Assembly: GCA_006384855.1 (NCBI GenBank)
Contig: VCJN01001568.1
Span: forward strand, 1-64,000
Reading direction: 5' to 3'
Length of the DNA stretch: 64,000 nucleotides
Source of the DNA: Tetraselmis striata
Lineage: Eukaryota > Chlorophyta > Chlorodendrophyceae > Chlorodendrales > Chlorodendraceae
Below the pieces are notes generated by a model. That model saw only the letters and a program-made list of their open reading frames with translations. It did not search any database and was not told the origin of the DNA. Below are positions 22,943 to 60,500 of the stretch, in pieces. Each line of letters opens with the position of its first letter. Position 1 is the first letter of the stretch. The translations under genes were made by a program, and so were the position numbers.

Positions 22943-24568
22943 TCATGAAGGAGGCACTGGGAAGGCCACCGCTGCGGAGTCCTGTTGGACTTGGAAGTGG
23001 CGGAGGGGGGCGATGTGTCCAAAGAAGAACCACGCGCCATGAGAAGGAAGAACGTTGGGGTCGATGTAGTCCAGAACGACATCGGAGTTAGTGGCCCAAC
23101 CGCCTTGGTAGCGGATGTGGGACAGTGGCGCTCCGATGGCGTTTGCTGCAGAGGCTGCGCCCTTGCGTAGACTGTGTGAAGTCCAGGAAGTGCCAGCAGG
23201 AGGGGCAGCGTTGACTAGGTTGACCGCTGTAGACAACCAGTCTGACATCGTAGCCGCAGTCCAAGGTTTTGACTGCTCAGCCACATTTACAGCCCAGAAG
23301 TTGGAGGCAGCCAAGCCAACAGTAACCAGGGGGACAGACTGGACGTTGTCGATGAAGTAGCGCAAGAGTCGTGCCACTCGAGGGTGCTCGGACACCGGAA
23401 GGAGAAGTACGCGCAGGTCGTCGGGTCCCCGACGGCCAGCGCGACCCTTCTCGCGGTAGATCTGCAAGGTGATGTTGTAGGTGTCGACATGCACATCTTG
23501 CGCTCGACAGGAGACGCCAGTAAGGCCCCTGGCAAAGAACAGGAAGTTGACAACCGAAGCCAAGAGGGCTCGGTAGTCGAGGTGGGACTCTGGGTAAGGA
23601 GCAGACACAATTAGCTCGGCCTTTGAGACGAAGCGGTAAGCTACATCCGCAGGCAGAGGGACACGCAAAGGGGCAGCGTCCAGCCGGCGCTGCCGCAACA
23701 TTAACCCACGCCTTGCCGAAGTGAGGTGTAGGCTGTCCTTGGCGATCGGGACGAGGTTGTGCAGCTCGAAGAAGGTGTTGATGGCAGACAGGTAGGGCTG
23801 CAGCGACTTAGCTGCGATGTGACCTCGCTCCCCGATCCAGGCAACGTACCGAACAACAGTAGCAGTAGTCGCCTCCAGCGGGCTGATGTTCTCGGAGTCG
23901 TGGCAGAACTCAGCGAACTGAGACAGTCTGCCGGCGTAGCTCTTGAGGGTCTGCGCGCTGAGGGAGCTGGAGAGCAGGTCCAGCGTCCGCTGGCCTAGCT
24001 CGTCTGAGCCGAACGCGTCCTGCAGCCGAGATCGCAGTGACGCAGCCCATGGAGCGATAGCTGCGGGCTCGTCGATTACGTAAGTGCGTCGTTTTACTGA
24101 CAGAGTTCCACCGGCACGGCTACTGTTCGCAAAGTACTCGGCAGCAGCGGTTAGGTTCCCGGCGGTTGGCCGGTAGTTGCTGGACGGGTTTGCAGTAGCT
24201 TCAGTACGGGTTTGCGGGGCTAGGTTCAGGTAAGAGGGCCGCCCCGCGCGCCCGTCGCGCTCGTAGCGCCTGTCCCGTGCGTAACGTACACGCGCGAAAC
24301 TTGGTCGTTGCGAACCGGTTGTAACACGTAGTGTAACAACCGACGAACGCAGAGATGGGGTTGTAAGAAAGGCGGATGGTTGAGCCGCCATGTGCAGGTG
24401 TGCGGATGGTTGAGCCGCACTCGGCTGTAGCTGTAAGAAGCGCCGCACCGAGGAAGGTCTAAATGAAGTCTGTAAGGTGGGGGGGTCAGGTCCTGACACA
24501 GGGCGCTCATCCCGCCGTTGAGCTGCAAGGGTGCGTTTTGCGGCGGTCACCGAAAGGTGGCCTCGCAA
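22943..24568 (-). CDS. Tyrosine recombinase of the DIRS-like element
   Basis: A 541-residue open frame. The N-terminal 120 residues are low-complexity. A core-binding SAM-like domain follows (LSAQTLKSYAGRLSQFAEF ... SLQPYLSAINTFFELHN). The catalytic domain then shows the family's residues: Arg in FARGLTG, Lys in YREKGR, HSLRKG (HxxR), GGW, and the nucleophile in VLDYIDP. It would integrate a circular DNA form of the element by site-specific recombination without target duplication. It lies 36 nt after the gag-like frame on the same strand, so the two are probably expressed from one transcript. Confidence 0.85.
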   Translation of the reverse strand: MRGHLSVTAAKRTLAAQRRDERPVSGPDPPTLQTSFRPSSVRRFLQLQPSAAQPSAHLHMAAQPSAFLTTPSLRSSVVTLRVTTGSQRPSFARVRYARDRRYERDGRAGRPSYLNLAPQTRTEATANPSSNYRPTAGNLTAAAEYFANSSRAGGTLSVKRRTYVIDEPAAIAPWAASLRSRLQDAFGSDELGQRTLDLLSSSLSAQTLKSYAGRLSQFAEFCHDSENISPLEATTATVVRYVAWIGERGHIAAKSLQPYLSAINTFFELHNLVPIAKDSLHLTSARRGLMLRQRRLDAAPLRVPLPADVAYRFVSKAELIVSAPYPESHLDYRALLASVVNFLFFARGLTGVSCRAQDVHVDTYNITLQIYREKGRAGRRGPDDLRVLLLPVSEHPRVARLLRYFIDNVQSVPLVTVGLAASNFWAVNVAEQSKPWTAATMSDWLSTAVNLVNAAPPAGTSWTSHSLRKGAASAANAIGAPLSHIRYQGGWATNSDVVLDYIDPNVLPSHGAWFFFGHIAPLRHFQVQQDSAAVAFPVPPS

Positions 24569-24604
24569 GGCTCATGCAGCTCCGACGAGCGGCGCCCCAC
24601 GCCA

Positions 24605-25459
24605 TCACTCGTGCTCACCTTCGCGGCCGCGTCCACGTCCGCCGCCACGTCCTCGCCCACGCCCGCGACCTGCAGCTGCAGCCGCTACTCGAGAAGTAGC
24701 GGTCGCCTTGGCGCTGCTGGCAACGGTCGCCTCGAAGACACGACGCTCGTAGTCCCTCATAAGGTCCCCAAAAATCGCAGAACCCAGATGCTCCGCAGCA
24801 GGCTGAAAATGCTGAGCTCGCAGCACATCCAGAACACCTTGGTCACCGTGCACACGCTTGATCTCATTCAGCCTCCGCAGGAAGGCTAGACGAAAACGAA
24901 ACGCCTTGTCGATGGCCTCGGCGTGATTCCGAGCTCTCGCGAGGTAGGGGGTGAAGTCCTGGTTAGTGGCGGGGACGTAAGGTAGCAGCTCGTCGAGCGC
25001 CACGAAAAGGGCGGCCATGTGAGCCCCGAAACACGACATCCACAAGTACTCCTCCTGGGCCGGCAGACGCCGGTCATCCTGCTTGAGGTACTCGTTCGTT
25101 AGGTCGGTGCTCAACGGGAAAAGTCCAGGCACTCGGCTGACCGGTCGAACGGCCTCGTAACCAGACTCTGCTCTCTGCAGTAGCTCTGGCACCGCGAGGT
25201 AATCATCCTCGGCACTCACGGATTTTGCTCCGACACGGCCGCTCTGGGCTAGCTCTAGCAAGTCGGGGCGCTCTGCGGCTCCCCCGCTGCCTGTCGGCTG
25301 TCCCGCGAAGCGCTGCCCTGAGCCGGAGCCATGTGCCCCTTCTCCATCAACAACGCGATCACGAGCCGTCAATTGTGCCACAGTTGTAGCCAATGCACGC
25401 ACATCTGCTTGCAACGACGTGAGCGTCGGCTCAACGACGGGTTCTTCTCCATCTGACAT
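24605..25459 (-). CDS. Gag-like protein of the DIRS-like element, RG-rich tail
   Basis: An open frame of about 284 residues starting at MSDGEEPVVEPTL. It has a short N-terminal helix-rich part, a polar linker, a helical core (LFPLSTDLTNEYLKQDDRRL ... LDELLPYVPATNQDFTPYL ... FGDLMRDYERRVFEATVAS) and an Arg-Gly-rich C-terminus that would bind nucleic acid. The position ahead of the recombinase corresponds to gag in DIRS elements; no zinc knuckle is present. Capsid function is inference from position and composition. Confidence 0.6.
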   Translation of the reverse strand: MSDGEEPVVEPTLTSLQADVRALATTVAQLTARDRVVDGEGAHGSGSGQRFAGQPTGSGGAAERPDLLELAQSGRVGAKSVSAEDDYLAVPELLQRAESGYEAVRPVSRVPGLFPLSTDLTNEYLKQDDRRLPAQEEYLWMSCFGAHMAALFVALDELLPYVPATNQDFTPYLARARNHAEAIDKAFRFRLAFLRRLNEIKRVHGDQGVLDVLRAQHFQPAAEHLGSAIFGDLMRDYERRVFEATVASSAKATATSRVAAAAAGRGRGRGRGGGRGRGREGEHE

Positions 25460-25573
25460 AGTAACGCACGGACGTACGGACGAGAATATCACACTCGGAT
25501 GGCGAGCCGGGTGTGGTCTTGAACAACCTGGGGTGACCTTGCTCGCAACGGGTTACGAGACAGTTTTTACATC

Positions 25574-29851: not shown

Positions 29852-32800
29852 ATGGAGCCGCCGGAGCACGAACCTGGCGCTGAGGCGGACGGCCTGACAT
29901 CGTACCCCCGTGAAGACGTCGACAGCGAGCCGGATGAAAGCAATGATGTTTTCGAGGAAGATGAGACCGGTGCAAGCAGCGGCGCCGACGTCGGCGCCGA
30001 CAGCACGGCATCGCGCGAGCTGAAGCGCGCTGTCAGCGTGCGCGTGAGCGAGGTTGAGAACAACCTGACGATGGGTGAAGTGGACGCAGAGGCGGTGCCG
30101 GGGTTGCTCGGCGCGGCCGCGGCGGAGCAGCGCGATGCGGAGATGGCGGAGCTGGTGGCGGCAGCGGAATCGCGCGACAAGTTGGAGAGTGCGCGCGCGC
30201 GGCGGGTCAAGCTGCCTCCGGCCAGCAGCAGCCCTTCCCTGGTGGATCGCTTATCACGCGGTGCCAAGGAGGTTGCCAGGGAGGCCAGCGGGAAGATAAA
30301 GCCGGTGCTGTCGCGGCCGTCGTTAAAGCAAGTGAGGCAGCGCCTCACGCGCGACACTCTGGCCATCAAGGTGGACAAGCTAGACCTAGTGGGCCGGCTG
30401 CTGGCGTACAGGTGAGCCCCCCCCGCCCCCCCCCCCCCCCCCCCCCCACCCCCCACCGAAACAATGTCGCATACCCGAATTGCAGGTAGCAACGTCTAGT
30501 TTCAGGAACTTCGACGTACAATGGCAACGCAAAGAGGGGTCGACGCGGGTGGGGGCAGGTCGGCGCTGTTCGGCAAAACGCGATGTCGCTCGCCTCGACG
30601 CGAGGGGCTAGGCCCCTGGCGGTGACTGCCATTGGTGCGACGGGGCTGCTGGGCGGCAGACGCTCTATCATGCGGGGAGCGTCGCGATTGCCGAGTTTCG
30701 GTGGTGGGCTATCCTGTGAGAACTCGGCAGTATTGGGAAGGGGGGACGTTGGCAGCGAGTGCTGTTTGTGTGAAATTCTCCGCTACGCGGAGGGTTGGCG
30801 AAGGAGGATATGGATTGGTGACTGCTGTTGGTGCCTGGCTGGAGGGGGCACGTGCCCATACATATGCTTGCAGAGGTTATGTCATCGCCCAGCCTGAACT
30901 ATCTCCCTATGTGGACCTGGCCAGGTCGACAAGTGGGCAGACCTTCCAGGAGAAGCTGGCTGCAGAGCTGAAGGCCGTGGACGTCAAACTGCCGACCATC
31001 ACAGTGCAGTACAACGATTTCTCCATTACCGCCAACGCTAAGAAGGGCGACAGCATCTCTAACGTTGCCAACACCATCACGTCCAACCTCAAGCGCCAGG
31101 TGGGCGCCTCGGGCTAGTGCCCCCCCCCCCCCCCCCCCTCCAATACATGCTCCTGTGTGAGCAGCATCTCAGCCCTGACCTGTGCCGCTGCTTCATCCAG
31201 GAGAGCGTCAACAAGAAGATCTTGAATGGCGTGTCAGGCGTACTGCGGCCGGTCTGCCCCCCCGCCAGGACACCCCCCTGCACCCAAGCCCCCAAAACAA
31301 CGCTTCTGCACCCTCCTACGCTGGTGACGCTGATAGGCTGTCTACTTGTGCCCCCCCTCTTCTGGCACAGGGCCGCGCCACGCTGCTGATGGGGCCGCCA
31401 GGAGGCGGCAAGTCTGTCTTCATGAAGGCGCTGAGCGGGCGGATCAAAGAGAGCAAGGATCTGACAGTGAGGGCCCCGCAAGCCAGAGGCTGCTAGGCAA
31501 AGTAACGATGTCAAATAATCCCAGTACCGCCATCAGCTTAGCCTTGCCATCCAGCGTACTGATTTTCGTCCTCCATCTTCCCCTCCCTCCTATCCCGTCA
31601 CCGCTCAGTTCACCGGCGACCTCTTCTACAATGGGCACCGCCAGGACGAGTTCAGGATTGAAAACAGCTCGGCGTATGTGGAGCAGGTGCGGCTACCTCT
31701 CGTATAGCTGGATATCATGGCAGTCCGGTTTTGCCACATGGCTTCTTCCGGGGACATGCAGACCCCCTCGCTGACTGCCCCCCCCCCCCCCCCCCTCCCC
31801 CGCCAAAAACACCCCTCTGGCCCCTGCTTCCAGATGGACAATCACTTCCCGACACTTACTGTCCGCGAGACATTGGAATTTGCCAAGCAATGCCAGCGTG
31901 GCGTGGGTGAGGGCAGCATCGTGAAGACTGTCAAGCTGCTGCTGGCCAGCCGCAGGAAGCGCAACCTGTCGGCCGCGGTGCGCACCTACAATCCCCGTCC
32001 AAAAATCCCTCGCGCCGGACGATCACCGCCGAGATATGTCTGCCCCAACCAGCTCTCAGCTACTAAATCGCATCTGCGGCGCTGGTGACCAGCTGATGGA
32101 GCAGCCTGACGTGTCCGCTGACTCTCCCCTCCCTTGTGTCGGCAGGCCGGTGGCTCGAGCATGTCGTCGGCCTACTCTGCCACGGACCTTGTGTTTGAGA
32201 ACCTGCTGCATGAGCTGAACAGCTCAGGCACGGTGGTGGTGGACTACGTCCTCAAGCTGATGGGCATTGACGGCTGCCAAGACACGGTGGTTGGTGACGC
32301 GATGCTGCGCGGCGTGAGCGGCGGCCAGAAGAAGCGCGTCACCACCGCGGAGATGCTGGTGGGATTCACACAGTTGCTGCTGATGGATGAAATCAGTACA
32401 GGTATGAGCCGCAAGCGGGCTGTCGGGGCTGGGGAGAGGGGGGGGGGGGGGGGGGGGGGCGAGAGGGTGTCCCTCTCTGAAGCCAGTCTGAGGCAAGCCG
32501 GACTGCACTCGCTGTCTTCCAGGCCTGGACTCCGCCACAACATTTCAGGTGGCGCTGTTCATCACCAACTACACGCATGCCATGTCGTGTACCACTGTGG
32601 TGGGCCTGCTGCAGCCTCCGCCCGAAACGGTGGCGCTCTTTGACGACATCCTCATCATCGCCGAAGGGTGCGGGCCCCCTCCCCCCTTTGCTTGCTCCAA
32701 TACATGTGCCTGTGCACATACGCATACATGCACATTGTGAACATGCCTTTTGATGCGTCGCAATGTAACTCAAGGGGAGCGATGGCATGGGCTTCTAGCG

Positions 32801-35800
32801 CTCATGTCCCGTTTGGATGTATGAAAGTGCTACGTGCTGATCGTTGGGCACAGCCCTCATTCTCCTTCATTGGGAATATGGACTCCCGAAGGGGGGTGGA
32901 GGGGGGGGGGGGGGGGGGGGGGATCAATTGCCCAGCCTTGCACGGTACAGCTGCTAAGAAGGCACCTGTCCTGCGATCACCTGGAGTGAAATGACAACTC
33001 TCCCAGATTCATTCCCTGGAATGATACGCTGCAATGTGAGCCTCTCCTGCCCCCCCGTTGCGGCCGCCCACAGGAAAATTGTGTACCACGGCCCCACTGC
33101 GGAGACGCTGCCCTTCTTTGAATCTCTGGGCTTCACCTGCCCCTCGCGTAAGGACATGGGCACCTTTCTGCAGGAGCTCTTCACGCCGCAGGGTACGTCT
33201 CCCGGGAACCTGGTGCCATGCTTGGCATCGCAAAGTTCCTGCCTCGCTCTCCAAGAGTCATGTTCCTGATCGCCAGGCGGTCTGTCTCTTGCATGACCTG
33301 ACTTGTGCGCCGGGGGGGGTTGCAGGCCAAGTGGAGTACATGCAGGGCGACCGCAAGACAGACTCCATGGATGAGCTTCTGCTGAGCGTGGACCAGATGG
33401 CGGGGGCCTTCTGGGCCAGCGACACCGGCAAAGCGCTCCAAGCTGAAGCTGCAGATACGGTGGACCGCGGTCTGAGCCACCCGGACGCGCTGCGCAAGCA
33501 GAAGTACGCGCTCAACCCGTGGGAGGCGTTCATGGTGCTCTTCAACCGGCAGGTGACGCCAGCTACCGACCAGCAGGGCCATCTTCAGCAGTTTGGGCAT
33601 CAGCCGCCGCACCCCCAATGTCCCGCCACTTACCCTCCTGGCGGCTGTGGGCGCTGTTGGTGCAGGTGCTGCTGCTGAAGCGCAATACAAACTTAATCTA
33701 CACGCGCGCGGGTTTTGCCATCATCACCGGCCTCATCCTCGGCACCGTTTTCTTCCAGCTGGAGCCCACCCTTGGTGAATCGCGCTCCTACTTTGGCCTT
33801 TTCTACCTCATTTGCATGTACCTGGCGCTGGGCAACCTGCCGCAGGTCGCAATCACCTTCAACGCCAAGAACATCTTCTTCAAGCACAAGAACAACAACT
33901 TCTTCCCCGCCTGGATTTACGTCCTGGTGCAGCTGATGGTGCACATCCCCTTTGCGCTGGCCGAGTCGCTCATCTTTGGCATCTGCATGTACTTTCTGTC
34001 AGGCCTCTCCACCACCAGCGCTAAGGTGAGTGCTTGCAGCACCCTGTTCTACTCGCACCCATTTGCCCATGCGTTGTCTGTCCTGGATCGCGACACGTGC
34101 TGTCCCCATGGCTGACTACCTCCCGGTAATTTCGTTGCAGTATTTCTTCATATGGTTTGTCATCGCTTTCTCGACTCACGTCAGCATGGCCACCATGTTC
34201 CGCTTCATCGCAAACATCTCACCTTCCATGGTGCGCGCATCCTCCATCGCGTCGCTCGCGCTCCTCATCAACGTGCTCACCTCTGGCTACACCATTGTGT
34301 ATGGGGACATCCCTCCCTGGTGGATCTGGCTCTACTGGATCAGCCCCTTCGCGTATGCCATTCGCGCGTTTGTCATCAACGAAATGACGGCACCGCGATG
34401 GGAAATGCGAGGTGCGGTGCTACCCCGCTGAGCGCAGGACGCCCGCACAGCCCTATGCAACTGGCCCCACCCCTCCGCAGCTTGTCCTCAACCGTCGTCC
34501 TGACACAGTGGAATTGAACAGGTGTTGTCGCTCTGGAGGGCTTTGACTTTTTCACCGAATCTTGGTGGATCTGGGCGGGCGTGGGATTCCAGTGGGCCTT
34601 CACCATTGTCGTCGTCATGCTGTCTTCTCTCACGCTCACCTACCTGGACACGCGCTCCGCACACCAGGTTGGCAGCCCCACCCCGGCTGGTCGCAGCTGA
34701 GCGGAACCCCACAGGATGTTTCACCACTTGCGCATGCGCATCAGGTTATCGCATGCCGTAAGGCAGAACCAGGCGCCAACAATGGCCAAATCTGGCTACT
34801 GTATGGTCTCAGGCTGCTCGCAGCTTTGCATCTGACGCGGCACCCTCGTTCCTTTCCAGGTTCGCATCAGCGACCGCCAGCGTGACCAGGCCATGGCGCA
34901 GGCCAGGAGCGAGTTCAGGCGCGCCAAGCTGCAGCTCAAGGAGCTGCAGAAGGAGCTTAAGTCGGGACCTACCAGCCCTGGTCCCAACGCCGTGGCCATC
35001 AAGATGCCGACCACCGCGTCAGGACCTATCCCCTTTGCGCCCGTCTCCCTCATCTGGCGCGACCTCAAGTGGGTGGCTACACCCCAATCACCGCCCCACT
35101 CTGTGTGCCGATATGCCAGACACACGATTTCGCTTTGGCGTGCCCATGGCATGCTGGCCTCCATTGCGACGCTGCCCGTCTCCCAGGCTGATTTGCTTTG
35201 GGTGCCTGCACAGGTACGTGGTGAAGACCCCGAGCGGCGCCAAGCTGGAGCTCCTGAAGGGCATCTCTGGCTTTGGCCGCCCCCGCCGACTGACCGCGCT
35301 CATGGGCGGCAGCGGCGCGGGCAAAACCACCCTGATGGACGTCATCTCTGGCCGCAAGACGCAGGGCGAGATTCAGGGCGACCTGCTTGTCAACGGTGAG
35401 CTCCCCAGTGCTGCCCCTCGAGGCTATTCCGCGCGTTTCCCTGCTGATTGAGCATGTCCTCCCAAGATAGACATTGTGCCGCAAAAACGTATCCAGCACC
35501 CTTATGCTTCGGTTATGTATACCAGCAACGATGTGATGTTAATCCATGTGTAGAGTCACACCCCTTCCTGACAGTCGCATTGGCGGATGATCTGCTCGTG
35601 CTGGTGCGGGTCCGTGCTGGGTGCGTTGCTAGCCAGCAGCCAGGCATCCCACTGAGCCATAGCCTCAGTTAGTCTGAAGCCCCTCAGCCCATGGAGCCTG
35701 AAGCATCTCTGCTGCCGCTTGCTGCCAGGCGCGCCAAAGAACCAGGCGTCCTTTTCCCGCATCATGGGCTACGTGGAGCAGACCGACATCCACAGCCCGC

Positions 35801-38189
35801 AGGCCACGGTGCGCGAGGCGCTCAGCTTCAGCGCTGCGCTGCGGCTGCCAGCAGACACGAGCGACATGCAGCGCGACCAGCTGGTGCAGGACGTGATCAA
35901 GATGGTGGAGCTGGACAGCCTGCAGGACCAGCTGGTGGGCGTGCCTGGGCTGACAGGCCTGTCAGGGGAGCAGCGCAAGCGGCTGACCATTGCAGTCGAG
36001 CTTGTATCCAACCCCAGGCACTTTGCCCTCGCCCCCACATGCTTGCTTAGTGACTTCCTCTGCGACTCACGGCGTGTGTCTCGCCACACTTACTGCTGCC
36101 TCTCTGCATTTCAACATGGTGATGGTATCCTTTGGCTCTCTGTCCGTCCCACTCCTGTTTGTGCCTGCGCAACTCGCCCATCGCCGTGTTGCTAACTGGG
36201 CGCCTGCCCGCCGTGCCGCAGCGTGGTGTTCCTGGACGAGCCAACCAGCGGGCTGGACGCAACGGCCGCCAGCGTGGTGGTCCGCACCATGCGGACCATC
36301 AGCGAGGCGGGCCGCACGGTGATGGCCACCATCCACCAGCCCTCCATAGAGATCTTTGCCGCATTCGACGCGCTGGTGCTGCTCAAGCGCGGCGGCCGGC
36401 TCATCTTCTTTGGGGAGCTGGGAGAGGCCTGCGCCAATCTCATCAACTACCTGGAGGATCAGCCCGGCGTCCCCAACATCCTGGACGGCTACAACCCTGC
36501 CACGTGGATGCTGGAGGTCTCGGGCGGGGATGTTGAGGTCAACGGTGTTGTCAAGGACTTTGCCAACCTGTATGAGGTGCCCCCCCCCCCCCCCCCCCCC
36601 CCCCACCCCCCCTCCCTCTCAGCCATACACACTGGTTCGGCAGACTGGCACTTCCCCAAACAGAATGTGCCCAAGCCAGTGCTCACATGCTGTGTGCGGT
36701 GCCTTCCCTGTTCCTCGCAGGAGTCGGAGCTCAAGGCGGCAAATGATGCGGAAGTGGAGAACGAAATCACGGCCAGCCAGTCCGCCCCCAAGATCGACGG
36801 CAGTGGCGCAAAGTCGGTGCCCCTGGGACGGCAGTTTGTTTTCCTCCTGCGCAAGAACTTCCGCACGTACTGGCGCTCCCCCAGGTGAGGCGGCCCTCCA
36901 CAACCTGCGTCAAACGCCCACCGCCACGTACCCCGGTGTCCGCCGCATCGCACCGTCGCTCACGCGCCCGCTTCCGCCGCCGCAGTTACAACATCACGCG
37001 GATGATCGTCATTGCGGTGATGGGCGCCATGTACGGCTCCATCTACTGGCAACAGGGCCTCGCCATCACAGGTGGGGGCAGCCCCCCCCCCCCCCCCCCC
37101 CCTTTGCCTGCACCCCCTCTGCCATTCTGATCTGCCCCTGGCGCTGTGCATCGGGGAATACGTGCAGGCCGTCATCCCACCCGCGGGCCACAAGCTTGCC
37201 GCTAACAAACCCCCCCCCCCCCCCCCCCAACCCGCCGCCGCGGTCCCCGGCTCACCCTTGTGAAATGTCCACAGCAACGTCCATCGACGAGAACCGAGTG
37301 CAGAATTTGCTGGGCGTCATCTTCAGCTCCATCACCTTTGTGGCGGTGTTCCAACTCACGGCCGTGCAGCCGATTGTCGCGTATGAACGCTCGGTGAGGC
37401 TGCTGCAGCTGCCATCGGTTTCCTGCGGCGCCAGCGTCCCGCTTTCTGTCGTCAGCCTCCCACATGAGGGGAGCGCGTAGACCCTCCGTGACCTGTTGAC
37501 AGTGTTTGGCACGGAGGATAGAGAAACCAATGGGTCTGTCGCGCCTGGCTGAGCCCTCTGCTCCCCCCCCCCCCCCCCCCTGCCAACCCGCGCCCCACCA
37601 GGTGTACACGCGCGAGTCGGCAGCCAACATGTACAGCGTGTGGCCGCAAAGCCTAGCGCAGGTGCTGGTGGAGCTCCCCTTCCTGGTGGTGCAGGCGCTC
37701 ATCTTCGTGCCCATCCTGTACTTTATGGTCGGCTTTGTCCCGGACGCCGGCAAGTTTTTCTTCTTCCTGCTCGTCAACCTGGCCAGCCTCTCGCTGTTCA
37801 CGCTCTTCGGGGAGTGGCTGGTGATGGTGACGCCCAACCAGCAGCTGGCGCAAGTCTTTGGTGCGGGGCTGAACCAAGTGTGGAACATCATGTGCGGCTT
37901 CCTGGTCGCGTTCCCGCTCATCCCGGCCTGGTGGCAGTGGGCGAACCGCGCCACGCCCTCCACCTGGCTCATTTACTGCATTGCCGCCAGCCAGATGGGC
38001 GACAGCCAGGCCGTCGTGAAGGCGGTGCTCCCCGGCGACGAGCGCCCACTGGGCGACTACCTCGCCGCCAACTTTGGCTACGAGTACAGCTTCCGCTGGC
38101 CGTCCCTCGGCATCGCGCTGCTCTTCATCCTCTTCTTCCGCATCACCTCCACCCTGGCGCTGCGCTACATAAACTTTGCCAACCGCTAA
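29852..38189 (+). CDS. Full-size ABCG/PDR-type ABC transporter, 21 exons
   Basis: A pleiotropic-drug-resistance exporter that pumps lipophilic compounds across the plasma membrane using ATP; substrate unknown. Exons: 29852-30411, 30925-31099, 31201-31251, 31371-31466, 31609-31686, 31834-31977, 32146-32401, 32523-32667, 33074-33192, 33326-33552, 33666-34025, 34141-34411, 34522-34667, 34860-35068, 35214-35395, 35729-36017, 36222-36576, 36721-36884, 36986-37071, 37275-37393, 37602-38189; about 1,539 residues. NBD1: Walker A GPPGGGKS (270-277), signature VSGGQKKR (about 425), Walker B LLLMDE. Membrane domain 1 follows, with ERS-like loop and [23 protein letters not shown]2: Walker A GGSGAGKT (977-984), signature LSGEQRKR, Walker [11 protein letters not shown]. 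Membrane domain 2 closes the protein. The acidic N-terminal 120 residues are lineage-specific. The start is the first ATG. The exon 6 end is the least certain join. The intron after exon 16 uses a GC donor. Confidence 0.9.
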
Positions 38190-46882: not shown

Positions 46883-49800
46883 ATGACTCGCTGGCGGCAC
46901 CTCTCACCGATTCTACTCGTTGTCGCCCTGCTGAGCCGCGCACAGAGCAGCAGTGTGCAAGCGATATGTACCGACAGCGGCCCTTGGGGACAGGTACGTA
47001 CTCGAACATGCACAGCCCCCGGTGACCCACCAGCCCTTTGCGATCTTGCTGCTATATGCAAAGTGGCAGCAATATTATTCCGCAACAACTACTGGTACTC
47101 ATGAAGCCGATGTCTTGAGGATGCTTTTGTGGCTAGTCGCTACGTGGCCGGCTACTCGGTAACAGGTCGTCCTTGGTTTCTTGGACTCCACGGACCTCTC
47201 CCCCAGCTCGGCCAGCTCGGCTGCCAACTCGGCACTCCTTTTCGTCTGGTTTTATCCATGTTTTATTTTTTGCGCTATATCCCGGGATGACGGGTACCGG
47301 TACCCGCCTGTACGGCTGCAGAAACTCTCGCAGGTGCGCGTACCCCGTCCCACCCTCCTGGTTAGGTCCTTCTAATTTTCTTCCATATAAATAGCTAGTA
47401 GCCTAGTACAGGCTTCCAGTCGCACTTTCCTTTCCCTGCGGACACAACTCGGCAGTCAGCCGCCGGGGTAGTTCGACGACACGCTGTGACGAACAAGAGC
47501 ACACGGCTTGCCTCTGCTGGTGAACTACTCACCAGGCAAGGGTTTCTCCGGACCCACCCCCCCCCCCCCCCCAGCCCCTCGCTCAGCACAGACACACACC
47601 GCGTTCGCGACAGCTATCGGTACCTCGTGCATGCTGCTTGTTTGCTGACGCCGTATCTGCTGTGGCTGGATGTTGCCTTTCATTAGGGCGTGTGCTCGAC
47701 GAGCAGCCCAGAGGCCTGTTTGGAGGGCTGCCTGGCAGGCACCCCATGGGATAGCCTGCGGATCGAGCTGGGTACGGCGCCCGCGCGGGTGCGGCGCCAA
47801 GAATGGACGCCGCCGACGGTGCGGAATCCACCGTGGCTGAGCGGCACGCTGCTGGCGAGCGTCTATCGAATTCTCGCGAAGGTGCGTCGACGTTCCCACT
47901 CTGGAAAGTACCAGAATCTCGCAGAGCAGCCCAAAGGAATGGGAGGGAAAAAGACAGCGTGGTGATGATATCCTCACGCCACGCACAGCACTCGCCTTGG
48001 GCTTTGCCACAGCAAACAGTCACGGAAGCGCACAATTCTGATGAGCCGAGGGTGAGGGAATTAGGGCTGTGATGTCTGACTTGCACCTACCCAACTTATG
48101 CTGCGGGGAATACGAGTAGTGTGAATAGTGGTTATTGCGCCCCCATGCCCATGTGCGGCGCTGCCAAGGGATGGGATGGCCCGCCTTGAGACATGCTCCA
48201 CCCTATGCCTTAGGTTGCTCTCAACGGCTTGGCGCTGGTGGCTAACACTGGCTCGCTCAATGAGGCGCAGGAGATGCTGGGCTACGACGAGGTGTACACC
48301 ATCACATCCGCCTCGCGCAGCGGCGTAGAGGCAGCAGCCAGCAGCGAGTGCGGTGCCATAACACTGGAGGGCTGGCAGACAGATGCCGCAACAGATGCCG
48401 CCCTGCTAGGGGGTGGGCCTGGCGCGGGTAGCGGGAAGGCGCTGTCCAGCCCCCTGGGTGCTGTGGGCTCGGAAGGCCTGTACGTGCCCTCCCGCATGCC
48501 GCAACAATCCACGTACTACCAGAGCCTGCCGCCGAGCGCCTTCCCGCCGGACGGCACCATGGGGCCCTCCGACTTGGATGGCTACTTCCCGGAGGGCAGC
48601 CCCTGGGGCTGCTCCGCGCAGGAGGCTGGATGGAGCGTATCGCAGTGCCAGGAGGGGCGCTGGTGAGCATGGGCGCCGCCTTGTCCCCAAAGCGCCTAAA
48701 TCCCAGGCGCAGCTACGTTGATCCACTCTGCAGTGCGCCCCTGACGTGCCCTCCGCCATTGCCAGGTACCCTACCAACTGCGGGCAGACTTTTCCAAGCA
48801 ACACCTGTGCGGAGATGTACATCCCGCTGCAGTCGTGGTCGGATGGTGCGAGCACCCAGGCACCTTGTCCCCCCGCCCTCCCTGCGCATGCGATTCCCCC
48901 GCAGCCGGCGGCAGCTGTAGGAAGACATATAATGCCGTCCGCGCCGATCTTGAGGCTGTCTTTCCGTGCTGCTCTCCCTTGGCACGCCGGACCTGCAATG
49001 GTGATCGGATCTGTTGATGGTAGTAGCGCAGGCACTTGTCACTGGGTTGTGAGCGCTGCCTGAGAACATGTACCAAGTCTAAACAGAACATGCGACCATG
49101 TGCTCCAGGCTGGTGGGAAGCAGCTGCGCAGAACCTTGGCCTCAACTTCTCTGCAGTTTACACCAGCTACCAGGGCCAGGTGGACCTGGTGCGGAGCGCC
49201 TATGAGGAGGGCAGGGACATCATGTACTACTGGTAGGTGTCCCCCGCCAGCATGCTCGGCTGCTGGCTGCTGGATGATAACAGGCTCGTCCAACTCAGAC
49301 TACGGCCTGCTGCCGCTGCGCAGGTGGCAGCCAGACCCGCTGACGTCCACGTACCCATCCCAGCGCGTGATGCTGCCGCACTTCTCCCTCGAGTGCGCGG
49401 CCTCGTACGACAGCGACCCCCTGCTGTCGGGTGTGGCCTGCGAGCGCGAGGACGTGGCGCTGCGCAAGTTTATGAATGCGCAAGAGGCGGAAGCGCAGCC
49501 GGACCTGTACACCCTGTGGAGCCGCTTCCATGTGTCGACCGCCGAGCTACGCCACCTGATGAGTTTCCATGTGCAGGGCGGCGGCTCCCACGAGACGATG
49601 GACGGCGCAGCTTGTGCGTGGCTGAGGTCGGAGGATAACACCGCACACTGGCAAACTTGGTTGGACATCCACGACCCCTGCGGGACGGCAAGCACGGGCG
49701 AAGTGTGGGACCCTTCTGCGATGGCCTGCGTGCCGATGGCAGAACCCCCAGCGCAGGGTGGCGGCACAAACCGCATGCTGCTCATCGGGGCGGTGGCAGT

Positions 49801-52800
49801 GCTCTCGGCGCTGTTGCTGTGTGCCTTTGCTGTGTGCGGCGTCACCTTGTGCAGGGTAAGTGCGGCTTGCTGCGGGTGCTCTACACAGCAATCTAGAACA
49901 TGCGGGTGCAGGACATGCATGTCATTTGTCGGCTGGGTGATTAGTTTCAGAAAGTGATAACAGTAGTGGCAGATAAGGAAGACAAATGGTTACGGGCGAC
50001 TGACACTGGCGGCTGCTCGGTAAATTGTGGCAGGCAATGCGCATAAGTCCTATGGGGAGGCACAGTGTGCCCCCCGGGCTTGGCCCTGAAAAAACAGTCA
50101 CACTGGTGATAACCGACATTCAGGGTAGCACCAGTCTGTGGGATGCGTACCCCGAGGAGGTGAGCTGCCCCTGTGTTGCCACCCTCTCTGCGACCCACCT
50201 GTTTGATGTGCGCCTGGTCGGTGTGACACAATGCGCCTTGGGGCTGTGGCTGGACGGCGCGCAGATGGCCAAGGCTGTGGCGCTCCATCACCGCTGCCTG
50301 CGTGCGGCACTCAACGAGTGCAATGGCTACGAAGTGGCCACAGAAGGGGACTCCTTCAAGTGCGCTTTCCACACGCCAGGTGCGAGCCGGCCGCAGCCTC
50401 GCAAGACCCCTCTGCAGCGCCTGAAAACAGGGCTATTCCCTTGCTGCGGCGTTCGCGTGGTGTGGATAAAATTGACGGCCAGTGGGTAATGCCTGCAGAG
50501 GATGCAATCAGCTGGGCGATTCTGGTTCAGGTGAGTGCGGGCAAGTGCAGTCGCCCATCTTTGTTTGCTGTGTGGAATGCAACGTGAAGTTCTCTATCCT
50601 GCCAAGTTATCTGCGGACAGGCTGGAGATGCTTTGCTTAGCACACCTGTGGGCGTGTTGCTGCCTGCAGCTGGAGCTGTTGGCTGCACCCTGGGACCCAG
50701 CCCTGGAGGACGGTGGCATGGGGGACTTCGGCGAGGCCACCAACTGGGCAGACATGAGCCGCAAAAAGACCAGCAGTAGAGACATCAGCCACTTCAAAAG
50801 CTTCAAAGACGGTGGAGTTCCCCGAGCCGCAAGCGCATGTTGGCTGCTCCCTAGAGTTAGATGGATGCTCAGTTTTTGGTTTTGAATGGAGGGGGGAGGG
50901 GGGGGGGCTACCTTACTTGGGTCCTGGATGTCAAAGGTAAGTTCACGGTTGCGTCAGGTGTGGAACAGTGCTGTGTGTACTCTGCGCTTTGTGTGGCTGT
51001 GGTTGGAGGAGTGTTAGCAAGTCGGCATCGTCAGAGACATGTCTGCATCCTGACGTGCCCGATCCTCCGCTGTCCCTAATCAGCCGAGAAGGACTTGGAC
51101 GCAAAGAGCATCCGGCCGCGTCGCTTGATGTTTGACATGAGCACCGCTGGTGCCACCAAGTTCTCCAAAATGGCAACCGCAAAGGTGAGCCCCCCGTGCC
51201 GCATTGCTCCTGCATAGGCAAGACCCGCCGCCACCAGCTGATCCTGGTGCTACCGCTCTTGTCCCATCACACACAGGACCCGGAATGCGCTGTGAGGCAC
51301 AGCAGCTGTCAGGCTGCCGTGCCCGCCTTCCGAGGACTGCGAGTCCGCATGGGCATCCACACCGGCACCGCCAATGTGGTTGGCAGGCATGACAACACGC
51401 GGCGAGTAACATATGGTGGCAAGGTGTCTCCCTTCAGCCCTGAAGCTTCTCTTCGCGCGCGCGCGTGTGTGTGTGTGTGTGTGTCCCACTTATAGCCCTT
51501 ATTTTGTCTGCTGACATTCACATGCAGACGCAGATGCCAATCAACACCAAGCAGTTGCATATGCATACATACATATGTATGTATGTATGTATGTATGTAT
51601 ATGTGTATCTGTATATATTGCTTTTTGGCACCGCTTTAAGCACCACCCCTTTCCTTTTCAGCAATCGGCCCCGTGTTTGCGCAGGTGGCCGCCATTGCCA
51701 AGGCCGTTTCAGACGTCCCCTGCGGCGGGCAGATCGTTGCCTCCAGTGACACCATTGCGGCCATCGGCTCCATGCACGGCCTCATGCAGTGCGTCAATGA
51801 GCGCTGCTTTGGCTGGGCATCGGCAGCGGACCCCCCAGAGCGACAGGTCCCGGGCATGCTGACAGTGATTCACCTGGGGTCGCACCTGCTGGGCCGCCAG
51901 TCTCTCAAAGCCCGGGTGCTCAACCCATATACGACAGCGCTGAAACCAAACTTGCAAGAGCAGGAAGAGATCCGCCGTTCTGCTGACCATGCGCAGCATC
52001 ACTCGAGAGTCCGCATGAATGTACCTGACAATGCGCGCTCCGAGTCGAATATCCAAGAAGCCACTCGGAGATCCAAATCGTACGGCTCGCGCAATGAGCT
52101 ATCTCCAAGCATCGCGGTAAAGCCAGCCAAAGAGCAGCAGCCACTTCTGCCGCTGGCATCGGTGGGCCTGGCGGACATGCCCGACCTGCTGACTTACGCC
52201 GAACAACTTCAGAGGAGCCAAGAGCTAGTGACCATCGTCCCATATCCGCTCCGCTCCCGTTATTGGTGCGTGCATGCCACCTTCACCAAAGCGACGCTGT
52301 GTGTGGCTGTGTTTTTGGCAATTGACACTCCTCTTGTGGGCCACATCCCCCTTCAAAGAGGTAATTGCGTACTCGATCTGTTGGCTGAAGCCCCCCCCCC
52401 CCCTTCTCCCCTCCCCTTCCCTTCCTTTCCCTCACAATGCAGGTGCTTTCCAAAGATTGACACACAGCAAGTATCCGCGGGGTACCATGATGCCCCGGCA
52501 GCCGCAGGCGTGACAATCATGTTCATCTTCATGGAGGGATGGGACGAAATGAAGGACTGGGCTGAGATATCCAAGCGCCGCTCCGATGTCCTCATGGAAG
52601 CCAAACAGATGCTTGAGCTGCAGGTGTCCCCTCCCCCCCTCGTGTGATTGTAGCCCCCCCCCCCCCCCCCCTTCTCCCTCTAGTCTAGCAGCACTTGTGC
52701 AGCCTTGCTATGGGCATTGGCTCCCAGGTCCCCCAAACACACCTTGACACACTGCTAGATTAGGGCTCTCGCTCCAACTCGCCTGCTACTTTTGAGTGTG

Positions 52801-55012
52801 CTGTTCTGTCAGGACCCCCGTGTCCGAGGAATGGAAGGAGCACATATTCCTATTCATATTCCTCTTATTGGCACCACCCCCTTCTGCCGCAACAGTTCTC
52901 ACTTCCCTCATTCTCACTTCCCTCTGACACCTTCCCTCTTCCGGGCGCATGGGGTGCCTTTCTTGGCAGGTTCGAGCGAACTTGATTGGCTTCCGCGGAT
53001 ACGAGGTGGAGGGCGAGGACGGCTGCTTTGTCTGCGCCTTTGGCAACGCAGTGGATGGGCTGGAGTACGCGGTGTCGCTGCAGGATTGCATGGCCGAGAC
53101 GCCATGGGACCCCGAGCTCCTGCAGGCGAGCTGGTGCCGGACGGTGGTCTCCAACGGGAGTCAGCTGCTGTCCGGCCCGCGCCTCAAGATTGGGCTCTGC
53201 ACGGCGGACGCCCTGCAGGCGCAGCCGTCCATGCGCACGGGGAGGATGGAGTACTTTGGATGGGTCATGAACCATGCGGCGCGCGTGGCGGCGGCTGCGC
53301 ACGGCGGGCAAGTGCTGTTCCATGAGCACACCCGCAAGGCGCTGGACATCGACAAGCTGCATCACTCCGTTGTCGTCAAGTACTGCGGGAAGCACAAGAT
53401 GAAGGGCATCAACAAGTCCATCAACGTGTACCAGGTGGGCGGCCAGATGTGCAGCCTTCCTGTGATGTGCGACCATTGGCCTGCTCAGGATCAATGGAAG
53501 AGAGGATGGCATCGGCGTACCATAGCACCACAAAGCGTGTGGTAGGCATGGAGGAGGCGCGGGCTGTTGAGTAGGTGGACATGTTATCATCATCGTACAG
53601 TCAGACATTATTAACGCACTGGATGTACGCATGGCAGGCATGTGGACCGCACTTTTGGGAGCACTCCTTCCCTCCGCTGGACACCAAGGATGTGGACAAG
53701 ACTCTGCAGCCGCTGGCGGAGTACTTGGCTCTGCAGGGCGGCGACAAGCGGAGGAGCTCCATTGCCAGGCTGAGCTTTGCCAGCTGCGGATCTTGTTTGG
53801 ACAGAGAGATGGAGGGTTCTGAAGACCCCGAGGTGGATGCCAAGCTGGAGGTGCGCAACGATTGTCCGCCGGTTGCGAGCACGGGCTGTGCATGCTTGCA
53901 TGCAATGTAGTGAACATATAACCATCCCGAGATCAGAAGCTGTGCTGCTCGTGTATGATAGCTGCACTGCCGGCTGGCGCCTGCCTCTCTGGTTTTGTCT
54001 CCCGGACTCTCTCTCTGCCTGCACTGCGAATGAGTCCATGAGTTCTGCTGCTGAGCCATGCTTTTGCGCCTGCAGAATATCGTGAATGAATCGAGAAAGA
54101 GCACCGAGGTCCACCGGAGGCTGACGCTAGATGACCGCCTCCGGCGAGTGATTCCAAAGCGCAACGGCAGCGGACGCAGTAGCTTAGATTCCAGATGCAT
54201 GGAGCTGCGTGCAGCAGAACAAGGAAAATACAGTGGTGCGCCCATCGAGCAGTATCGTCGGCAGCTACGTGGTGCGATGCCTGCGGGAACGACGCAACAT
54301 GTGAAATTTCGCACATCGCAAGGGGCCAAGGACGAGTCCCAGGAGAAGGTAAGGGCCTCCCGGCCATCGCTGACAGTGTTGGTCGATGAGACAGCCAACG
54401 GTTGGCGCAGGTTAACATTGTGAGCGCAAAGTCATGACATTACGCTTTCATGCTCTTGTGGCTTTGTCATTGGCAGTACCGAGGGCATTGGATTCGGTGC
54501 TATCCAATTACCGCCACACTGAGTGTGCCCACCATCCTGCCCCCCCCCCCCCCCCCCCACACACACACCCTCCCTTGCAGGTCGATCCTGTGGGGATAAA
54601 TACCGAGCCCCCGCCGACCTGCCGCCAGCAAATGTCAACGAGCAAACGTGACGAGAGCTCGTCGCCTGCCGCTCCGCACATCGGGTTACACCGTAGTGGC
54701 AGGCGCTTCTCAATGGGAAGCACCACCGGCTCCAAGTCTCTGGAGTTGCGGCCTGACCGCCTCTCTGATGAGCAGGAACAGGCAGATTTAGCTTGGGCAA
54801 GCTCGCGGCGGCCTACGCTACTGGACTTTGCGACAGCCGGTCCTGCCTCGGGGTCCAGTGAGGCCAAGGCTGAGCCCAGCCTGCCATGGGACACGAAAGC
54901 ATTGGACAGTTTTGCCAGTGCTGCATACAAGCTGCCCGACAGCCCTGGCACAACTGGCAACGCCAGTTCCCCTGGGAAACGCATCCCAAGCGCCAGTGAC
55001 AATAGGGTGTGA
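46883..55012 (+). CDS. Receptor-type nucleotide cyclase: binding-protein ectodomain, one membrane span, two class III cyclase domains
   Basis: Likely makes cyclic nucleotide in response to an external ligand. Exons: 46883-46993, 47166-47333 (uncertain), 47687-47881, 48214-48662, 48766-48845, 49109-49232, 49324-49855, 50034-50159, 50265-50379, 50499-50530, 50670-50811, 51084-51184, 51277-51415, 51662-52265, 52443-52623, 52970-53434, 53638-53850, 54076-54348, 54581-55012; about 1,493 residues. A signal peptide (MTRWRHLSPILLVVALLS) precedes an ectodomain resembling OpuAC-type solute-binding proteins (YTSYQGQVDLVRSAYEEGRD, MYYWWQPDPL), with many cysteines. One span lies at about 530-552. Cyclase domain 1 has VTLVITDIQGSTSLWD (Asp581) and EVATEGDSF (Asp624), but YAIGPVFAQVAAI lacks the Asn and Arg. 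Domain 2 lacks the metal Asps (TIMFIFMEGWDEM, EVEGEDGCF) but keeps Asn1134 and Arg1138 in EYFGWVMNHAARV. A long Ser-rich tail follows. Adenylyl or guanylyl specificity is open. Confidence 0.85.
51465..51484 (+). repeat. (GT)n microsatellite in a cyclase intron
   Basis: About nine to ten GT units directly after a CGCGCGCG run, inside the intron between 51415 and 51662. Confidence 0.9.
51563..51605 (+). repeat. (CATA)/(TATG) microsatellite in the same cyclase intron
   Basis: CATACATACATATG switching to TATG repeats, giving a self-complementary stretch. Confidence 0.9.
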
Positions 55013-57589: not shown

Positions 57590-60500
57590 GATCTAAACTA
57601 GTTTATGGGGTTTCCTCCCTTGACCTAACCGCTTTTCAACTACAAGTGCTGCTCAGTGGTACGAGAACTAGGCACCTGTCGTTGCGCCCTTTTTGGGTGC
57701 AGCACGAGTAGACATAAAAGCAGCCATAACAGCTGAGCATGCCATCTTCCAATTTTCGCTGCGTTCCACGCAACGATGTTAAAACTGTCTTGTAACCTGT
57801 TGCGAGCAAGGTCACCCCATGTTGTTCAAGACCATACCCGGCTCACCACCCGTGTGTGCTATTCTCATCCGTACGTCCGTGCGTTACCATGTCAGATGGA
57901 GAAGAACCCGTCGTTGAGTCGACGCTCGAATCGCTACACGCATACGTGAAGGCCCAATCTACATTGCTGCGCGAGCTTGCAACAGCGTTGGCCCAATTGA
58001 CGGCTCGTGATCGTGTTGTTGATGGAGACGGGGCACATGGCTCCGGTTCCGGGCAGCGCATCGCGGGACAGCCGACAGGCAGCGGGACAGCCGACAGGCA
58101 GCGCCCCGACTTGCTAGAGCTAGCCCAGAGCGGCCGTGTCGGAGCAAAATCCGTGAGTGACGAGGATGACTACCTCGCGGTGCTAGAGCTACTGCAACGA
58201 GCAGAGTCTGGTTACGAGGCCGTTCGACCGGTCAGCCGAGTGCCTGGACTCTTCCCCCTGAGCACCGACCTAACGAACGAGTACCTCAAGCATGATGACC
58301 GGCGTCTGCCGGCTTTTGAGGAGTATCTTTGGATGGCGTGTTTCAGCGCCCACATGGCCGCACTTTTCGTAGCTCTCGACGAGCTGCTGCCCTACGTCCC
58401 TGCTGCAAGTCAGGACTTCACTCCCTACCTCGCGCGAGCTCCGAACCACGCCGAAGCCGGCGTTTCGCTTTCGTTTGGCCTTTCTACGGAGGCTTGATGA
58501 GGTCAAGCGTGTGCACGGTGACCAAGGTGTTCTGGACGTGCTGCGAGCCCATCACTTTCAGCATGCTTATGAGCATATGGGTTCTGCGATTTTTGGGGAC
58601 CTCATGAGGGATTGCGAGCGTCGCGTCTACGAGGCGACAGTTGCCAGCAACGCAAAAGCGACCGCTACCGCTCGGGTAGCGGCAGCGGCTGCAGGGCGCG
58701 GGCGTGGACGAGGACGTGGTGGTGGACGCGGGCGTGGCCGCGAAGGCGAGCACGAGTGACGGTGTGGGGAGCCTTTCGTCGGAGCTGCTGGAGCTTTGCG
58801 AGGCCACCTTTCGGTGACCGCCGCAAAGCGCACCCTGGCGGCTCAACGACGGGATGAGTGCCATGTGTCAGGAGCTGAACCCCCCACCTTACAGACTTCG
58901 TTTAGACCTTCCTCGGTGCGGCGCTTCTTACAGCTACAGCCGAGTGCGGCTCAACCATCCGCACACCTCTACATGGCGGCTCAACCAACCGCCTCCCGTA
59001 CCATTTCATCACTGCGTCCGTCGATTGTCACACTGCGTGTTACAACCGGTTCGCAACGACCAAGCTTCGCGCGTGTACGTTACGCGCGTGACAGGCGCTA
59101 CGAGCGCGAAGGGCGCGCGGGGCGGCCCTCTTACCTGAACCTAGCCCCGCAAACCCGTATAGATGCTGTTGCAAACCCGTCCAGCAACTACGTACCGGCC
59201 AACCGCCGGGAACCTAACCGCTGCTGCCGAGTACTTTGCTAACAATGGCCGCCCCCCTTGTCACTCTGTCGGTAAAGCGGCGCATTTACGTAATTGACGA
59301 GCCCGAAGCTGTCGCTCCTTGGGCTTCTTCACTGCGATCTCGACTGCATGATGCTTTCGGCTCAGACGAGTTAGGTAAGGGCAGCGGACGCTCGACCTGC
59401 TCTCGAGCTCCCTCACCGCTCTGACACTCAAGAGTACGCCGGCAGACTCTCCTAGTTCGCGGAGTTCTGCCACGACTCCGAGAACATAGCCCGCTGGAGG
59501 CGACCTCTGCTACTGTCGTCCGGTACGTTGCATGGATTGGTGAGCGAGGGCATATTATCGGGGCTAAGTCGCTGCAGCCCTACCTGTCCGCAATCAACAC
59601 GTTCTTCGAGCTGCACAACCTCGACCCAATCGCCAAGGACAACCTGCACCTTACTGCAGCTAGGCGTGGGCTGATGCTGCGGCAGCGCCGTCTAGAAGCC
59701 GCCCCTTTACGAGTTCCTCTGCCTGCTTATGTAAATAGCTTACAGCTTAGTTCGTCGAGCGGGCCGACTTCATTGTGTCTGCTGCCACCACAGAGTACCA
59801 ATACAACTTTCGAGCCCTGGTGGCCTCGGTTGTCAACTTCATGTGCTTTGCCAGGGGACTTTTTGGCGTGTCCTGCCGAGTGCGGGATGTGCATGTCAAC
59901 GATTACAACATTGCCCTGCAGGTGTACCGCGAGAAAGGTCGCGCTGGCCGACGGGGCCGCGACGACATGCGCGTGCTTCTCCTTCCGGTGTCAGAACACC
60001 CCCGCGGTGCACATCTCCTTTGCATTACTTCATCGACCAGTACATTCTGCCCCCCTGGTTCCTGTTGCCTTGGCTGAAACAAACTTCTGGGCGGTCACCC
60101 CAAGCGAGCAGTCCAAATCTTGGACCGTGCCGCTACAATGTCGGACTGGCTATCTGCAACCGTTCGTCTTGTCGGTGCTGCCCCTCCCGCCGGCACTTCC
60201 TGGACCTCACACAACCTTCGCAAGGGAGCAGCGTCTGCCGCTAACGCCATCGGAGCTCCATTGTCCCAAATTCGCTACCAAGGCGGCTGGGCTACTAACG
60301 ACGTCGTTCTGGACTACATCGACCCCAGCATTCTTCCTTCACCCGGCGCGTGGTTCTTCTTTGGCCACATTGCGCCCCTCCGCCACTTCCAAGTCCAACA
60401 GGACTCCGCAGCGGTGGCCTTCCCGGTGCCTCCTTTATGACATGGCGCTACCCCTTCTCCGTCAATCCCCCGCTCTCTCCGTTCGCTCATGACTGGCAAA

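Follow-up and report, generated by a model that had tools for sequence, protein, structure and literature searches.

A predicted single-span receptor gene of the green alga Tetraselmis striata with two class III cyclase domains of complementary residue loss

INTRODUCTION

A gene on contig VCJN01001568.1 of the green alga Tetraselmis striata raises the question whether two cyclase domains, each of which has lost a different half of its catalytic residues, could together form one active site within a single receptor chain. In class III cyclases, two Asp residues are described as binding metal and an Asn and an Arg as acting on the transition state, while a Lys/Asp pair selects ATP and Glu with Cys, Ser or Ala selects GTP; paired cyclase domains are described as having one live and one degenerate pocket (PMC6592433, PMC7384201). 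The algal gene lies at 46883..55012 of the stretch of DNA analysed here (64,000 nucleotides, called the window in what follows), and all coordinates are on the + strand unless stated otherwise. An earlier sequence-only reading of the region had recognised the two domains and proposed that they share one site in the manner of mammalian transmembrane adenylyl cyclases. Here we weigh this proposal by alignment, profile scores, fold prediction and searches for relatives.

RESULTS

Catalytic residues are divided between the two domains

Both domains were compared with a reference alignment of 50 bacterial domains from 52 loci (L051, being incomplete, was left out, and L052 gave no match) and two trypanosome rows, the columns of which we take to correspond to the numbered residues of mammalian cyclases. 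Listed in the order metal, metal, base, base, transition-state Asn and transition-state Arg, the string DDKDNR occurs in 39/50 bacterial rows and 2/2 trypanosome rows, and the single residues are found in 49 (D), 50 (D), 49 (K), 50 (D), 43 (N) and 48 (R) of the 50 bacteria. Domain 1 (the metal half, exons 7-13, 50097..51933) reads D,D,A,T,A,A under both possible joins of exons 12 and 13 described below, and domain 2 (the transition-state half, exons 14-15, 52504..53434) reads F,G,E,E,N,R. At the four metal and transition-state positions, each residue is kept in at least one domain and none is gone from both. The catalytic set of PF00211 would be complete only across the pair, in which domain 1 has D,D and domain 2 has N,R; neither domain has it alone. 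PF00211 itself matches domain 1 at about 55 bits (E about 1e-14, either join) and domain 2 at 28.8 bits (E 1.1e-6), with a curated cut-off of 21.9 bits.

The residue claims of the sequence-only reading held in this alignment. The two metal Asps of domain 1 (motifs TDIQG and EGDSF) were located at 50115..50117 and 50349..50351, and Ala occupies both the Asn and the Arg positions of this domain by profile alignment with either join (51691..51705 with join 51423|51685). In domain 2, both metal Asps are missing from the motifs FIFMEGWDEM and GEDGCF, being replaced by Phe (52528..52530) and Gly (53021..53023), and the transition-state Asn and Arg of the motif MNHAAR are retained (53270..53272 and 53282..53284). 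Due to the fact that an Asp sits one residue ahead of the lost second metal Asp (EVEGEDGCF), a one-residue register shift of the hairpin is possible at this second position. Both base-selecting positions of domain 2 carry Glu, at 53009..53011 (Lys in 49/50 bacteria) and at 53249..53251 (Asp in 50/50 bacteria). Domain 1 moreover has Arg at the phosphate-binding Arg position (51385..51387), where domain 2 has Gln; this residue is Arg in the trypanosome rows and in only 15/50 bacteria. A Lys in the beta7-beta8 loop of domain 2 (53402..53404; Lys or Arg in 47/50 bacteria) is Gly in domain 1.

Conserved segments are eroded reciprocally

Segment scores of both domains were compared with those of 52 relatives (50 bacterial and 2 trypanosome), each relative being scored with itself left out, and for residue and segment scoring the alignment was trimmed to the relatives' length. 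For the metal loop (beta1-alpha1), domain 1 reaches 45.7 bits, with 18/52 relatives scoring no higher, and domain 2 reaches 10.0 bits (0/52). For beta4 the values are 36.1 bits in domain 1 (52/52 no higher) and 0.0 in domain 2 (0/52). Erosion of the transition-state helix (alpha4) falls on the other side: domain 2 scores 56.5 bits (12/52 no higher), vs -10.0 or 0.0 bits in domain 1 depending on the join (0/52), and the value of -10.0 is rough because trimming cuts the extra residues of the first join; they are kept in the profile alignment used to compare the joins. By these scores, the metal loop, beta4 and the transition-state helix are each eroded in one domain and preserved in its partner, and this segment pattern is stronger evidence for a split site than the residues alone. 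Residues and segment scores together bear out the claim that complementary half-sites stand in the mammalian C1/C2 order.

The join of exons 12 and 13

Intron 12 (51416..51684) allows two in-frame joins, 51415|51662 (the first join), which encodes RVTYAIGPVFAQVAAIAKAVSDVPCGGQ, and 51423|51685 (the second join), which encodes RVTYGGKVAAIAKAVSDVPCGGQ. A profile built from 50 bacterial and 2 trypanosome cyclase domains gave 131.5 bits for the best domain with the second join, leaving the helix ungapped, vs 124.9 bits with the first. Splice sites scored by a position matrix from the gene's 16 other introns slightly prefer the second join as well (donor plus acceptor sum of 12.50 vs 11.87 bits), and Pfam is blind to the choice (54.9 and 55.2 bits for the two joins). 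The first join, which the sequence-only reading had used, is therefore probably wrong and the second fits better. Since the second join is preferred, part of the motif GPVFAQVAAI, on which that reading had placed its two Ala residues, may be intron; the Ala/Ala assignment stands under both joins in the profile alignment, and the letters of the motif need the first join. A Lys at the Arg position of domain 1 was also considered. It arises if the second join is hand-aligned on YG, not on GGQ, and was rejected as the profile alignment gives Ala.

It had been foreseen that other joins restoring Asn or Arg to domain 1 would speak against a split site. We enumerated joins with GT/GC-AG borders that keep the frame and introduce no stop, taking exon ends at 51340-51639, starts of the next exon no later than 51759, and introns of at least about 40 bases; within the stretch examined, 0/82 restore the spacing of an Asn with Arg or Lys four residues on.

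Architecture of the predicted receptor

The whole gene was modelled by hand as 18 exons encoding 1432 amino acids, of which 15 exons were placed to the end of cyclase domain 2 and 3 more to the stop, all with GT-AG introns and in frame. In this model, domain 1 has its metal and base residues inside exons, as domain 2 has its catalytic residues. According to the sequence, the product is predicted to be a membrane receptor with a signal peptide, an OpuAC ectodomain, a single span and two class III cyclase domains, which agrees with the single-span receptor supposed earlier and adds to it. Exon 1 (46883..46993) carries the putative signal peptide, with a hydrophobic stretch at residue 10 (Kyte-Doolittle 1.45). 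The membrane span LLIGAVAVLSALLLCAFAV (49778..49834) has the top Kyte-Doolittle value of the protein, 2.79, and the next values are 1.52 and 1.45; leader and span together point to the receptor orientation. Between them, exons 4-6 (48842..49627) encode the C-terminal lobe of an OpuAC-like ligand-binding ectodomain: residues 278-421 match PF04069 (OpuAC, of the glycine-betaine-type solute-binding kind) with E 8.6e-8 and 32.5 bits, the curated cut-off being 21.2, and the match covers only the second, C-terminal half of the profile. A PDB sequence search with the ectodomain gave no match at E<=1. The sequence-only reading missed both this ectodomain and the Glu/Glu base pocket.

The two cyclase domains are connected by a linker of 131 residues in the model (51934..52503, from exon 13 to the start of exon 14 and including intron 13), in which no Pfam family scores above cut-off. 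One open frame, 51640-52647, runs from the last part of domain 1 through the linker into the first part of domain 2, and stays open across intron 13. Hence the two domains are hard to assign to separate proteins, in keeping with the earlier placement of both in one. Among the exon edges named in the sequence-only reading, 52265 and exon 15 at 52970-53434 were retained, and only 51415|51662 was replaced. Its end coordinate, 55012, agrees with the C-terminal tail in exons 16-18 (53638..55012), an in-frame continuation to the stop; the three open frames that contain these exons gave zero Pfam matches at E<=1.

Two further features of the gene were observed. Domain 1 contains an insertion of ~85 residues between the hairpin and beta4 (50712-51330), possibly a regulatory insert. 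Intron 13 (52266-52442) is 177 nucleotides long, a multiple of three and free of stops, so that its retention would extend the linker and leave the protein unbroken. When the 64-kb window was searched by tblastn with domain 1 (insertion removed), domain 2 and the ectodomain, matches were confined to the receptor gene, and domain 1 matched exon 15 of domain 2 with 29.6% identity (E 1.8e-8).

Fold prediction of domain 2

An AlphaFold2 model was made of exon 15 only (155 residues) with 34 bacterial rows, which leaves beta1-alpha1 (exon 14) outside the model. The mean predicted local distance difference test score (pLDDT) was 82.4 and the predicted TM-score (pTM) 0.77. In a Foldseek comparison with the PDB, the top match was 1fx4 (E 3.1e-4, probability 1.00, TM-score 0.64 by query length); 5/84 matches had E<=0.001, and the best 50 of the 84 were all cyclases. 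From the model and these matches, domain 2 is predicted to have a class III cyclase fold.

Relatives and origin

Among solved proteins, the trypanosome receptor-type adenylyl cyclases 1fx2 and 1fx4 come nearest to both domains. Using phmmer, domain 1 matched 1fx4/1fx2 with E about 1e-18, the signal lying mostly in its first 92 residues, and domain 2 matched the trypanosome cyclases with E 2.5e-5; mammalian adenylyl cyclases were absent from the matches at E<=1 (8 sequences for domain 1 and 5 for domain 2). A 35-row profile of exon 15 and 34 bacterial rows reached the mammalian cyclase AC8 at E 2.7e-7 vs 1fx2 at E 2.7e-31. Trypanosome receptor cyclases and single-domain cyclases of bacteria stand closest and the mammalian enzymes far behind, so the two-domain split design probably arose separately from the mammalian one, as had been proposed.

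The bacterial relatives, from 52 loci, are 28-45% identical in the best segment and share the motif GRMDYFGP..N..AAR.....GGQ. A match was found in 51/52 loci, and the frames seen contain a single cyclase domain per locus; two of them had a second stretch at E about 5, which is not credible. A Pfam scan of 10/52 bacterial proteins found a kinase partner in 8, ATPase/TPR in 2 and OpuAC in 0. Three of the bacterial loci (L005, L019 and L021) come from assemblies titled Klebsiella pneumoniae. In the tree, their cyclases fall amid Myxococcota, Planctomycetota and other Pseudomonadota, and these titles look doubtful; L005 was one of the ten scanned with Pfam. Domain 1 grouped in this tree with the trypanosome rows (100/89), and the program flagged a meeting of long branches. 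No relative was found in viral contigs searched with the domain 1 alignment and with exon 15 of domain 2, and phages searched with domain 2 gave no match; a plasmid search with residues 1-85 of domain 1 gave 6 Sinorhizobium records.

For green algae, two groups of class III cyclases appear in a published tree (PMC8115329). Among the papers listed by searches of the open-licence part of PMC, none shows in its title or the start of its abstract an algal OpuAC-cyclase or a pair of complementary cyclase domains on a single-span receptor. In the Coccomyxa genome paper (PMC3446292), words beginning cyclase, cAMP, cGMP or receptor do not occur.

Other features of the window

Two diverged copies of an apparent mobile element with a tyrosine-recombinase open reading frame lie at 22946-25552 (- strand) and 57796-60489 (+ strand). 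The recombinase matches PF02899 in the first copy (E 5.6e-8), the frame of the second copy (59425-60489) has no Pfam match, and both copies have a common upstream open reading frame containing MSDGEEPVVE. A transposase frame at 1673-2656 (- strand), which is presumably Harbinger-type, matches DDE_Tnp_4 (E 2.5e-22) and Plant_tran (E 6.8e-9). At 32122-38186 (+ strand) lie exons of a PDR-type ABC transporter, with matches to ABC2_membrane (E 1.2e-29) and PDR_CDR (E 1.8e-6) and one to PDR_assoc below cut-off. The PDR-transporter and transposon matches in the window are plant-like.

DISCUSSION

The reading that we favour, and hold to be rather likely, is a single-span receptor with an OpuAC-type ectodomain for a small solute that would signal through one composite class III cyclase site. 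The analysis shows the domains, their topology in the gene model, the residues and the reciprocal erosion; the pairing of the domains, catalysis and the ligand class are what we infer. A ligand on the OpuAC-like ectodomain would alter the state of the receptor, and domains 1 and 2 of one chain would close head to tail. Domain 1, through its two metal Asps and its phosphate Arg, would hold metals and phosphates, and domain 2 would contribute the base pocket, the Asn, the Arg and the Lys of the beta7-beta8 loop. The mirror pocket would have neither set of residues and would be dead, and it could serve as a regulatory pocket.

If the site is active, we would give a preference for GTP an even chance. 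The Glu/Glu base pocket of domain 2, in place of the ATP-type Lys/Asp, weakly favours GTP, or a relaxed or unusual substrate, over ATP. Glu at the first base position is described as the main GTP-selecting residue, and the second position as less conserved among guanylyl cyclases (PMC7384201). Compared with the guanylyl cyclase pair, the first Glu of domain 2 is the same but the second is Glu, not Cys, Ser or Ala, and Glu at the second base position is not among the pairs named in the relevant parts of PMC7384201 and PMC6592433. A fuller version can be offered tentatively, and we think it less likely than not: a green-algal receptor of the betaine or choline class, which may make cyclic GMP or a non-canonical cyclic nucleotide at one intramolecular site with a Glu/Glu purine pocket, would have evolved independently of the animal and alveolate two-domain cyclases, and its dead second pocket would be free for regulation.

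Several observations weigh against a composite site, and some of them speak for a pseudoenzyme receptor, whose two decayed cyclase domains would now serve as a non-catalytic pair that binds nucleotide or partners. The base-selecting residues are altered in both domains (Glu/Glu in domain 2, Ala/Thr in domain 1), and the change of both residues in domain 2 is compatible with decay too. Both domains score weakly in beta7-beta8 (-3.2 and 8.2 bits in domains 1 and 2, 1/52 relatives no higher each, median 35.1), and the hairpin is reduced in both, to a greater extent in domain 2 (beta2-beta3; 30.2 and 6.1 bits, 1/52 no higher each, median 54.0). Branches in the tree are long, and domain 2 has diverged so strongly (branch about 3.4) that its placement is impossible; with this and the long-branch warning, we draw no duplication history from the tree. 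Complementarity of residues is modest evidence by itself, as five well-conserved positions would each be kept in exactly one domain with a chance of 2 x (1/2)^5 = 1/16. In the exon 15 model, pLDDT is lowest at residues 81-110 (block means of 61, 63 and 69), which hold the second base residue, the Asn and the Arg, and the model superposes loosely on 1fx4 (rmsd, the root-mean-square deviation, of 7.4). Finally, no transcript, protein or homologue bearing the same domain pair was found. Nevertheless, the erosion is reciprocal and not random, with scores for beta1-alpha1 and beta4 of domain 1 and alpha4 of domain 2 that lie inside the range of the 52 relatives or exceed it, and no metal or transition-state position is missing from both domains. 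We thus regard a pseudoenzyme as unlikely, though deserving serious consideration.

A composite site might also form between two receptor molecules, with domain 1 of one and domain 2 of the other, so that ligand-driven dimers would be the switch. Single-span trypanosome receptor cyclases require dimerised cyclase domains (PMC6027212), and the 131-residue linker permits either arrangement, but tandem domains in one chain make an intramolecular pair simpler, and the arrangement between molecules appears improbable to us. Still less credit is due to the idea that each domain partners another cyclase of the same cell and not its neighbour: separate-chain heterodimeric cyclases do exist, such as the chytrid NeoR/RGC pair (PMC8815786), but complementary losses inside one chain would be left unexplained, and we consider this very unlikely. 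An error of the gene model through which lost residues return or the domains split is the least probable of all. The ambiguous join and the lack of a transcript speak for it; against it, none of the 82 joins at exons 12/13 restores anything, the residues at stake (metal and base in domain 1, catalytic in domain 2) fall within exons, and the frame through intron 13 is open.

Favouring one composite site in one chain, we compare the algal receptor with known systems. Bacterial class III cyclases linked to kinases or ATPase/TPR have a related domain, but it is single in the frames examined and mostly complete (39/50 as above), and OpuAC was seen in 0/10 of those scanned. The transmembrane cyclases of Trichomonas carry a single cyclase domain (PMC2914791), and chytrid NeoR/RGC cyclases are heterodimers of two chains (PMC8815786). 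Trypanosome receptor cyclases are described with a large ectodomain of Venus-flytrap modules and one complete cyclase domain that must dimerise (PMC6027212). These receptor-type adenylyl cyclases (GRESAG 4.1/4.3; 1fx2 and 1fx4) have in common with the predicted algal receptor a single span, an extracellular ligand domain and a cytosolic cyclase, but theirs is a complete domain with Lys/Asp base residues, whereas the algal receptor has two incomplete complementary domains and Glu/Glu.

Mammalian transmembrane adenylyl cyclases have 12 spans as two sets of six and are not known to have a binding-protein ectodomain, and these two sets are not matched by the algal receptor, which has one strong span and a leader by hydropathy. 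In the mammalian enzymes, one domain holds the metal Asps and the other the Asn and Arg, which leaves one pocket live and the other degenerate (PMC6592433), and the division into half-sites and the domain order, metal first and transition state second, are the same in the alga. The analogy drawn by the sequence-only reading holds for this half-site logic but not for the base pocket, as mammalian C2 has the ATP pair Lys/Asp and algal domain 2 has Glu/Glu. Toxoplasma TgATPaseP-GC is described as a tandem pseudo-heterodimer with Glu in the base pocket and predicted use of GTP (PMC6592433). The alveolate P4-ATPase guanylate cyclases (TgATPaseP-GC and PfGCalpha) resemble the algal receptor in being tandem pseudo-heterodimers with a base-pocket Glu, but their domain order is inverted, with the transition-state half in GC1 and the metal half in GC2, and they differ further in having many spans, a fused P4-ATPase and a Glu/Ala pair (PMC6592433).

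If active, the algal protein would add one more case, apparently of independent origin, in which two cyclase domains share one active site, here in a simple one-span receptor. It would link ligand, span and a single catalytic site in a compact system with a recognisable solute-binding ectodomain, offer a natural Glu/Glu pocket for testing the choice between ATP and GTP, and suggest a solute-to-cyclic-nucleotide pathway in green algae. The half-site logic is already known from the systems above; compared with them, the novelty lies in the type of receptor, in an origin that is probably separate and in the Glu/Glu pocket.

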